Positions 1-1,732 of a stretch of DNA of 32,429 nt are shown here, piece after piece (the stretch's first letter is position 1; the number at the start of each line of letters is the position of its first letter). The translations under genes and the position numbers were made by a program. A model generated the notes under the pieces. It was not told the DNA's origin, did not search any database, and was given only the letters and a program-made list of their open reading frames with translations. Source of the stretch: Gammaproteobacteria bacterium (GTDB taxonomy: Bacteria; Pseudomonadota; Gammaproteobacteria; Francisellales; CACEW01); assembly GCA_029240715.1 (NCBI GenBank), contig JARDZR010000005.1:1-32429 (forward strand), given 5' to 3'.

Positions 1-72
1 CAGCATCAATTGCCGTTTGTGATAGAGACTGAAAGAGGCCTTGGCTATCAGTTTAAAGTAGAGCATCGATAA
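1..72 (+). CDS. phoB: 3' end of an OmpR/PhoB-family response regulator (partial)
   Basis: The first 23 codons read in frame to a TAA at 70-72. The C-terminal residues RGLGYQF are the last beta-hairpin of the winged-helix DNA-binding domain of OmpR/PhoB response regulators, where the family usually has RGxGYxF. The receiver domain and most of the DNA-binding domain lie upstream of the window. The stop codon overlaps the start of the next gene by one base (TAATG), so regulator and kinase should be translationally coupled as a two-component pair. The name PhoB rests mainly on the PhoR-like neighbour; another OmpR-family regulator is possible. Confidence 0.75.
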   Translation, partial: QHQLPFVIETERGLGYQFKVEHR

Positions 73-797
73 TGTCAGAACAGGACGAATTAGAAAGACT
101 GCATAAGATGCGCCAGGATTTTGTGGCGAATGTTTCTCATGAATTGCGTACTCCTCTAACCGTTATTCATGGCTATCTAGAGATGCTATTAAGTTCTTAT
201 AAAGAGGTTGATTCCAAGCTCTATGAAATTTGGAAAAAGGTATTTGAGCAGACTGAAAGAATGGAACATTTGGTGGCTGATTTGCTATTGTTATCCAAAT
301 TGGAAAGCGAGGAACCTCTTGCTAAAAAAGCTGCCTGTGAGCTGCCAAAGTTAATTGATAAAATTATGCAAGATGCCAAGGAGCTTAGCCAGGGCAGACA
401 TCACTTCAAAGTCAATATCGATCGATCTTTAGATATATTGGGTGAAAGCTCAGAACTCCGTAGCGCTTTTTCCAATTTGGTGATGAATGCAGTCCACTAC
501 ACCCCGCTCAAGGGAGAAATCAGCATTAGCTGGTATGCTGATAAAGACGGCGTGCATTTTGAGGCGAAAGACAATGGCATTGGCGTCCCTGCTCAAGACA
601 TTCCAAGACTAACTGAGCGGTTCTATCGGGTGGATAAAGGACGCTCTCGTCAATCAGGCGGTACAGGCCTTGGGCTTGCTATTGTTAAACACGTATTAAT
701 GCGTCATGAAGCAAAATTAACCATTCAAAGCGAGCTTGGAAAGGGCAGTGTTTTCACGGCTACTTTCCCGGCTAACCGAAAGCTTGTTACAAACTAA
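72..797 (+). CDS. phoR: PhoR-like sensor histidine kinase lacking any sensor domain
   Basis: This is the catalytic half of a histidine kinase of 241 residues. The H-box NVSHELRTPLTV puts the phospho-acceptor at His23, followed by the N-box near Asn139, the DNGIGVP G1 box and GTGLGLAIVKH from about residue 197. The H-box and the following GYLEML match PhoR of the phosphate regulon. E. coli PhoR is about 430 residues, with membrane segments and a PAS domain before the H-box. Here only 22 residues precede the His and no hydrophobic segment exists. An in-frame TGA at 30-32 rules out a longer N-terminus, so the protein should be cytosolic. It probably phosphorylates the regulator encoded just upstream. 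Its input is unknown; it may be constitutive or controlled by a partner protein. No good Shine-Dalgarno is visible, so translation likely depends on coupling. Confidence 0.85.
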   Translation: MSEQDELERLHKMRQDFVANVSHELRTPLTVIHGYLEMLLSSYKEVDSKLYEIWKKVFEQTERMEHLVADLLLLSKLESEEPLAKKAACELPKLIDKIMQDAKELSQGRHHFKVNIDRSLDILGESSELRSAFSNLVMNAVHYTPLKGEISISWYADKDGVHFEAKDNGIGVPAQDIPRLTERFYRVDKGRSRQSGGTGLGLAIVKHVLMRHEAKLTIQSELGKGSVFTATFPANRKLVTN

Positions 798-805
798 GGA
801 AAACC

Positions 806-1732
806 GTGCATCAATCCGTGTTGTTAAAAGAGGCAGTTGAGGCCTTAAATATAAAAGCTGATGGCATCTATATAGATGGCACTTTCGGTAGAGGGGGCCA
901 TAGTGCTGCTATTTTAGCTCAGCTATCTGATCAAGGCCGTTTGATTGTGATCGACAAAGACCCGCAAGCAATTGAAGTGGCTCAATCGCAATATGCTCAT
1001 GACCCTAGAGTCAGCATTGTTCATCAGGGTTTTGGCGAGCTTGAGAATATTGCTGAGCAACTCAATATAATCGGCAAAGTGGATGGGCTGTTGCTGGATT
1101 TAGGCGTGTCTTCCCCGCAATTGGATGAAGCTGCGCGAGGATTTAGCTTTATGCGAGACGGCCCGCTTGATATGAGGATGAATACCAGCCAAGGTGAGTC
1201 AGTGGCTGAATTTTTGCAGCATGTGGATGAAAAAACCTTAGCTGATATTATCTGGCGTTATGGCGAAGAAAAGTTTTCAAGAAAAATTGCTAAGGCAGTG
1301 ATTGAAACTCGTACTGAGTCTCCTATTCAAACTACTTTACAGTTGGCAAAGTTAATCGAACAGTCTATTCCAAAAGTAGATAAGTTCAAACATCCTGCAA
1401 CTAGAAGCTTTCAGGCTTTGCGGATATATATAAACCGTGAACTTGAAGAACTGGAGCAAGCCTTAAGCTCTTCTGTTAAGGTACTAAAAACAGGAGGCAA
1501 ATTGGTCGTAATCAGTTTCCACTCTCTAGAGGACCGTATTGTTAAACAGTTTATGCAATCTCAGTCTCAGCCTGCAAATTTACCTCGCGGTTTACCTATT
1601 CGCCAATCTGAAATAAACTCACAGCAAAAAATGCGCTGGTGTATTAAAATGCAACGAGCTGATGAAAATGAAATTGCACAAAACGTTCGAGCCAGGAGTG
1701 CAATCTTGCGCGTAACGGAGAAAACAGGATGA
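806..1732 (+). CDS. rsmH: 16S rRNA (cytosine1402-N4)-methyltransferase RsmH (MraW)
   Basis: RsmH uses S-adenosylmethionine to methylate N4 of C1402 in the decoding centre of 16S rRNA. The 308-residue product has the family length and shows the SAM-binding start IDGTFGRGGHS, then LLLDLGVSSPQLD, GFSFMRDGPLDMRM, FKHPATRSFQALRI and ISFHSLEDRIVK in the expected order. The start is a GTG with AAGGA seven bases upstream. It begins eight bases after the kinase stop and overlaps ftsL by four bases (ATGA). In most bacteria this gene follows mraZ at the head of the dcw cluster. Here mraZ is missing and a two-component pair stands in its place, so expression may follow that operon. Confidence 0.97.
   Translation: MHQSVLLKEAVEALNIKADGIYIDGTFGRGGHSAAILAQLSDQGRLIVIDKDPQAIEVAQSQYAHDPRVSIVHQGFGELENIAEQLNIIGKVDGLLLDLGVSSPQLDEAARGFSFMRDGPLDMRMNTSQGESVAEFLQHVDEKTLADIIWRYGEEKFSRKIAKAVIETRTESPIQTTLQLAKLIEQSIPKVDKFKHPATRSFQALRIYINRELEELEQALSSSVKVLKTGGKLVVISFHSLEDRIVKQFMQSQSQPANLPRGLPIRQSEINSQQKMRWCIKMQRADENEIAQNVRARSAILRVTEKTG

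Follow-up and report, generated by a model that had tools for sequence, protein, structure and literature searches.

The PhoR protein encoded in the window, by which we mean the whole analysed stretch of 32,429 nucleotides, is a histidine kinase in which, judged from its sequence, the enzyme part is complete and the sensor is missing. Such a core-only PhoR adds a new architectural variant to a known family. The lack of the transmembrane (TM) part is a trait common to several families and not a one-off, and throughout our sample a TM-less PhoR accompanies an undetectable PhoU without exception, yet with few independent events behind the pattern. We suggest, with a probability of roughly 0.6, that the protein would be a working PhoB kinase/phosphatase that is uncoupled from Pst-PhoU and acts at a default level or in response to a cytoplasmic input.

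The kinase starts with an ATG and carries its phospho-acceptor histidine at residue 23, i.e., only 22 residues precede it. Pfam matches the HisKA and HATPase_c domains (Table 1), while no PAS domain was found by the Pfam and NCBIfam profile searches. The protein has no hydropathy peak, and there are no residues for an N-terminal membrane-spanning region. The best NCBIfam model is TIGR02966 (PhoR, 1e-96, 323.9 bits), where the alignment begins at profile position 106 of 333 and the score lies below the cut-off of 334.2. The E. coli-type PhoR model NF008235 gives 258.1 bits against a cut-off of 390, with an alignment from position 196 of 431. The protein does not reach the score of either curated equivalog; it does contain the PhoR-subfamily HisKA and HATPase_c core, and its gene adjoins phoB with a one-base overlap. 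The H, N, G1 and G2 boxes are intact (N box NLVMNA, G1 DNGIG, G2 GGTGLGL). The first-pass annotation had described a catalytic core that begins 22 residues before the histidine, has no membrane or PAS part and keeps its kinase motifs; open reading frame, Pfam, NCBIfam, hydropathy and the four boxes all agree with this.

In the structural model (ColabFold, alignment of 16 sequences, mean pLDDT 80.4, pTM 0.73) an unbroken helix covers residues 3-43 with His23 in its middle, and a second helix (48-79) is followed by the CA domain, which is modelled with low confidence in some parts. A fold search with the model returns DHp+CA kinases such as HK853 as the nearest solved structures, i.e., the fold is that of an ordinary DHp+CA kinase. 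By sequence, the nearest PDB entries are 4jas, the PhoR chain 8h70 (CA part only) and 2c2a. The protein is probably a soluble DHp+CA dimer.

The window is an entire contig (C40) of the genome G000, which has 1.37 Mb in 135 contigs and is 77% complete. Bases 1-69 in frame 1 read QHQLPFVIETERGLGYQFKVEHR, followed by the stop codon. This is the C-terminus of PhoB, as it aligns with the ends of six compared PhoB proteins with scores of 30-51, and one base is common to the phoB TAA and the phoR ATG. The regulator gene thus appears to be coupled to the kinase gene, as had been claimed, but only 23 of its codons are visible, and the contig edge removes the rest together with the phoB promoter.

This edge lies 71 bases 5' of phoR, and three other short PhoRs in our sample of the class (G065, G190 and G212) are contig-edge cases, so it has to be asked whether an assembly or gene-call artefact conceals a longer PhoR. 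We regard this as very improbable. The phoB gene ends one base into phoR and two in-frame stops lie just 5' of the start, which leaves no room for a longer protein, and the relatives likewise have a short PhoR; together these rule out the contig edge as the cause. One of the stops, the TGA, had already been taken to bar a longer version; it is confirmed, and the TAA comes in addition. With an alternative genetic code, in which TGA is read as Trp, this TAA still closes the frame. Among the TIGR02966 and NF008235 matches in G000 at strict thresholds there is no N-terminal PhoR fragment elsewhere. The sole other match in G000 DNA to the first 2400 bases of the window (83% over 48 bases, at the G2 box) lies in a 417-aa open reading frame, L002 (G000:C17:5997-7250), probably a kinase.

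Table 1. Features at the start of the window and genes next to phoBR in other core-only genomes
Feature	Position	Strand	Basis or remark
phoB 3' end, last 23 codons and TAA (70-72)	1..72	+	truncated by contig edge; alignment to PhoB ends
phoR core, 241-aa histidine kinase, DHp+CA only	72..797	+	ORF, NCBIfam, Pfam, AlphaFold2 model (mean pLDDT 80.4)
TAATG stop/start overlap of phoB and phoR	70..74	+	sequence; likely translational coupling
In-frame TGA 5' of phoR	30..32	+	sequence
Second in-frame stop (TAA) 5' of phoR	54..56	+	sequence; absent from the first-pass annotation
HisKA (DHp) domain, residues 13-80	108..311	+	Pfam PF00512
Phospho-acceptor His23 codon, in SHELRTP	138..140	+	sequence
HATPase_c (CA) domain, residues 126-235	447..776	+	Pfam PF02518
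rsmH (mraW)	806..1732	+	8 bases 3' of phoR
PHS (Pho84-like) symporter gene	L106:5613-6938		beside phoBR (G002)
PHS (Pho84-like) symporter gene	L171:6596-7927		beside phoBR (G059)
PHS (Pho84-like) symporter gene	L172:10062-11453		beside phoBR (G196)
Polytopic-looking protein	L169:4154-5527		directly ahead of phoB (G117)
Polytopic-looking protein	L170:10504-11688		directly ahead of phoB (G175)
Polytopic-looking protein	L107:11204-12370		directly ahead of phoB (G001)

Two other genomes of the same family, G001 and G002, were compared. Close relatives with a full-length PhoR would speak against a genuine loss, but both are core-only. The PhoR of G001 is 57% identical to that of the window and also has 22 residues before the histidine; that of G002 is 41% identical, has 33 residues before the histidine, and its ATG overlaps the phoB stop. 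In G001, phoR is coupled to a carboxymuconolactone-decarboxylase gene and stands tail to tail with phoB; this decarboxylase-family gene (L004:1118-1492) overlaps the start of the core phoR, with phoB on the opposite strand.

In the sister family PhoR is found in 12 of 30 genomes, and all 12 proteins have residues in the PAS region while none has the TM part. Their alignments to TIGR02966 start at position 10-12, the open frames are 341-360 aa long, and phoR lies behind phoB in the loci inspected. In the three proteins scanned, Pfam detects the PAS only weakly, if at all. The rest of the family, 17 genomes of genus g4 and one 57%-complete genome, gives only weaker kinase matches. In G027 of the sister family the gene order is phoB-phoR-trpB-trpA-rsmH (trp and rsmH named by eye), so phoBR lies upstream of rsmH as in the window, which supports the orthology of the core kinase with the PAS-bearing PhoR. 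Since PhoR of the gammaproteobacterial outgroups has both TM and PAS, a series is seen: TM and PAS in the outgroups, PAS only in the sister family (12/12), and the core only in the family of G000. The membrane part is thus missing in both family genomes and in all 12 PhoR-bearing sister-family genomes, and the PAS part in the family genomes.

Core-only PhoRs occur in seven genomes from four families (G000, G001, G002, G117, G175, G059 and G196). Genomes with a TM-less PhoR are as large as 3.2 Mb, which shows that the trait does not depend on strong genome reduction. In one genome two contigs, G029:C23 and G029:C24, show identical kinase and permease matches shifted throughout by 158 bases; this is probably a duplicated contig.

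The architecture of PhoR was compared with the presence of PhoU. None of the 33 genomes of the order gave a match to PF01895 (PhoU), while the same search detected it in 14 of 18 other genomes; its controls gave a signal in 13 of 14. A wider census used 185 genomes evenly drawn from the class, with NF008235 at E up to 1e-52 for PhoR and E up to 1e-8 for PhoU. PhoR was detected in 137 and PhoU in 134 of them; at this threshold, PhoU occurs without PhoR in eight genomes. Four of the 137 were excluded, the contig-edge cases G065, G190 and G212, in which PhoU is present, and G132, which has eight stops in its PhoR match and where PhoU was not found. Of the 133 that were counted, 123 are full-length (profile start at 51 or less, except G184, which starts at 107 and was classed as full-length with a 423-aa frame and a TM peak; the match of G168 holds one stop). 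The other ten are TM-less, five of them core-only (G000, G117, G175, G059, G196) and five with PAS kept (G158, G126, G055, G056, G061). These classes are based on the profile start, as hydropathy alone separates them imperfectly: among the proteins of the tree below, a peak of at least 1.6 before the histidine is present in 25 of 28 full-length and 2 of 24 TM-less rows, the two exceptions being G031 (within the PAS region) and G056 (at the very beginning of the open frame, dependent on the start codon).

PhoU was found in all 123 genomes with a full-length PhoR and in none of the ten with a TM-less one. The order adds 14 TM-less genomes, again without PhoU, so that it goes undetected in 24 of 24. 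A Fisher test of architecture against PhoU gives 3e-15, a value that overstates the case and is not usable as a probability since the contrasts are not independent. The first-pass annotation had proposed a search for pstSCAB-phoU as a check; neither PhoU nor PstC was found in G000 (77% complete) and G001 (85%), while G002 has PstC and no PhoU was found there. With 77% completeness, single absences in G000 are weak. In a search of the open-access literature we found no description of a core-only PhoR or of its tie to the absence of PhoU.

How often the membrane part was lost was addressed by a maximum-likelihood tree of 52 kinase cores (28 full-length and 24 TM-less rows). It places 22 of the 24 TM-less proteins together (support 80/84), with G158 and G061 outside. 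All TM-less proteins may nevertheless form a single clade, which is not rejected (p-AU 0.49). With one to three independent contrasts, either one ancient loss of the TM part and PhoU or a few such losses would fit. The core-only proteins of G117, G175, G059 and G196 group with that of G002 (99/97), apart from G000. A single core-only clade is compatible with the data (p-AU 0.52) and several losses of PAS fit as well. Neither the family (p-AU 0.30) nor the order (p-AU 0.22) is rejected as a clade.

The output of the system was traced through Pho boxes, defined as TGT[C/A]A[T/C] twice with an 11-base period, in 19 loci of together 280 kb; these were picked around phoBR, pst and a few others, and the rate of hits is not genome-wide. 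Six perfect double half-sites were observed, against a mean of 0.53 and a maximum of 3 in 30 first-order Markov simulations, and all six lie 6-52 bases 5' of the first possible gene start. They precede pst (G006, G018), the PHS-type symporter gene beside phoBR (G059 and G196; L171:7968, L172:10038) and the gene of a membrane protein leading into phoB (G117, G001). A weaker site with 11 of 12 half-site bases (L106:5532) is found ahead of symporter-phoB-phoR in G002, and another weaker one precedes pst in G019. A scan that allows one mismatch gives several hits also away from phosphate genes. The scan gave no Pho box in the window and the three other G000 stretches read, and none before pst in G002 or close to phoBR in G175, G019, G006 and G027. 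Pho boxes before phosphate-importer genes in relatives, several of them beside phoBR, indicate that the pair probably still serves phosphate.

These sites also bear on whether the kinase is a relic on its way to being lost and retained by chance. Systems have been lost elsewhere: G132 (1.4 Mb, one contig), in which neither PhoU nor PstC was found, has a PhoR match interrupted by stops, and the 17 genomes of g4 show only weaker kinase matches. However, in all seven core-only proteins the H, N, G1 and G2 boxes are intact (the N box of G059 reads NIIINS) within an open frame, even though those of the family are just 41-57% identical to that of the window, phoB is kept adjacent, and relatives have Pho boxes. 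A relic is therefore quite unlikely. The interrupted match in G132 (L150, G132:C1:8200-12500) is probably a case of decay in another lineage.

The transporters that could be connected to the kinase differ between the genomes. PstC above the family cut-off is found in 11 of the 12 PhoR-bearing sister-family genomes and in G002. It was not found in 12 of the 24 TM-less genomes, namely G031, G000, G001 and the nine outside the order, which were searched at E 1e-10 and where G061 gives only 44.9 bits. The pst loci read in G002, G019, G018 and G006 contain pst genes (named by eye) without phoU. A PHS-type phosphate:H+ symporter (best hit TIGR00887, 298-304 bits, below the cut-off of 610) adjoins phoBR in three of the seven core-only genomes, directly 5' in G002 and 3' in G059 and G196 (430-670 bases away). 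G000 has a homologue on contig C55, which matches the G002 protein with 34% identity and 233 bits and for which the scan gives no Pho box; no homologue was found in G001 at E 1e-15. The polytopic proteins linked to phoB in G117, G175 and G001 have no Pfam or NCBIfam match; in a single comparison those of G117 and G175 are 26% identical (E 8e-6) and share GxGNRxG-like stretches, and the genes in G117 and G001 are the ones preceded by a Pho box.

PitR (PF01865) is over its cut-off in seven of the nine TM-less genomes outside the order. A divergent PitR, which scores around or under the cut-off or is picked up by a profile made from such sequences, is present in eight PhoR-bearing sister-family genomes, which gives 15 of 24 TM-less genomes against none of six PhoU-bearing controls (5+5 searched, six distinct). 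In six sister-family loci read, one of them from g4, PitR lies just 5' of a pit gene (named by eye). At L156-L161, sister-family genomes including g4, which lacks a PhoR ortholog, carry the divergent PitR near or below the Pfam cut-off. No convincing PitR was found in G000, G001 or G002, the best hit in G000 having 15.9 bits (E 0.005).

Kinases under the control of a transporter are known, as BceS and UhpB. As the main alternative we tentatively consider control of the core kinase in trans, by a separate protein that may be the PHS-type symporter, the polytopic protein linked to phoB or, in other lineages, PitR. The symporter gene adjoins phoBR in three core-only genomes, two of which have perfect Pho boxes there and the third the 11/12 site; in another three, a polytopic protein is encoded immediately before phoB; and PitR is confined to the TM-less side of the comparison above. 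A survey of PhoU, PitR and transporters in 926 genomes, whose section 5 does not treat PhoR architecture, describes PitR as PhoU-like, associated with Pit transporters and repressing PhoR in S. aureus (PMC13170248). However, the family of G000 has no convincing PitR, the symporter homologue of G000 lies elsewhere and G001 has none at the threshold used, Pho boxes denote targets and not sensors, and the region 5' of phoB lies outside the window. A more specific proposal, with PhoU and often also Pst missing, is that the PHS-type symporter, whose gene beside phoBR has its own Pho box in some relatives, would be both importer and sensor steering the soluble core PhoR; this appears unlikely.

We consider a kinase set free from Pst-PhoU to be the better reading, and published work is consistent with it. 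In E. coli, PhoU together with PstSCAB turns PhoR down (PMC4423584), and the interaction of PhoU with PhoR depends on the PAS domain (PMC4423584, PMC9239213). The signal sensed by PhoR is intracellular (PMC10055408). The parts lost here are thus those that, in E. coli, bring PhoR to PstSCAB-PhoU and permit shut-off by PhoU. E. coli PhoR lacking the TM region was shown to autophosphorylate in vitro and was then assayed for transfer (PMC5458449). As the simplest account, we propose that PhoU was lost first and that the membrane and PAS parts, then without a partner, could have been shed stepwise, with the core still serving PhoB. As PhoU is undetectable in the lineage, and the Pst permease was not found in G000 and half of the TM-less genomes, the kinase would be uncoupled from transport sensing. 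Given its motifs, the coupled gene and the Pho boxes of relatives, it most likely continues to act on PhoB as both kinase and phosphatase. Its output may be a fixed setting or follow a purely cytoplasmic input, e.g., the nucleotide level acting on the CA domain. Some input is likely, since an always-on kinase is expected to be costly.

Two published cases limit how far this can be generalised. In Salmonella, PhoU acts also on the kinase domain of PhoR and the PAS domain alone is insufficient for binding (PMC9239213), so the loss of PAS need not free a kinase from a PhoU. In Bacillus subtilis PhoR is a membrane protein. This bacterium is described as having no PhoU homologues and yet a phosphate kinase under other control (PMC13170248), so the link between the TM part of PhoR and PhoU is not universal.

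The series from TM and PAS with PhoU, via PAS only without PhoU, to the core only without PhoU suggests that the membrane part serves to meet Pst-PhoU in these bacteria. This bears on how PhoR reads phosphate and why it is membrane-bound without a large periplasmic sensor. Each core-only pair is a minimal kinase/regulator system ready for use, and together the pairs form a natural experiment on the step between PhoU and PhoR.

Compared with PhoR of E. coli and Salmonella (PRK11006, NF008235; TIGR02966), the window protein shares the DHp and CA domains, the motifs and the coupling to phoB, while it lacks TM and PAS, and no PhoU was found in G000. The sister-family proteins (e.g., G019, G027 and G006) are as in G000 coupled to phoB, without a membrane part and without a detected PhoU; unlike the window protein they keep the PAS region, and PstC is kept in 11 of 12 genomes. 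The same architecture is seen in G117, G175, G059 and G196 from other families of the class, in which PhoR has only DHp and CA and lies directly behind or overlaps phoB, and where, as in G000, PhoU and PstC were not found; they have 35-39 residues before the histidine compared to 22 here. Structurally, the cytoplasmic parts of HK853 (4jas, 2c2a), WalK and VicK have the same DHp+CA fold, aligned over residues 3-236 of the window protein. These PDB entries are constructs or portions of longer kinases, whereas here the DHp+CA part is the whole natural protein.
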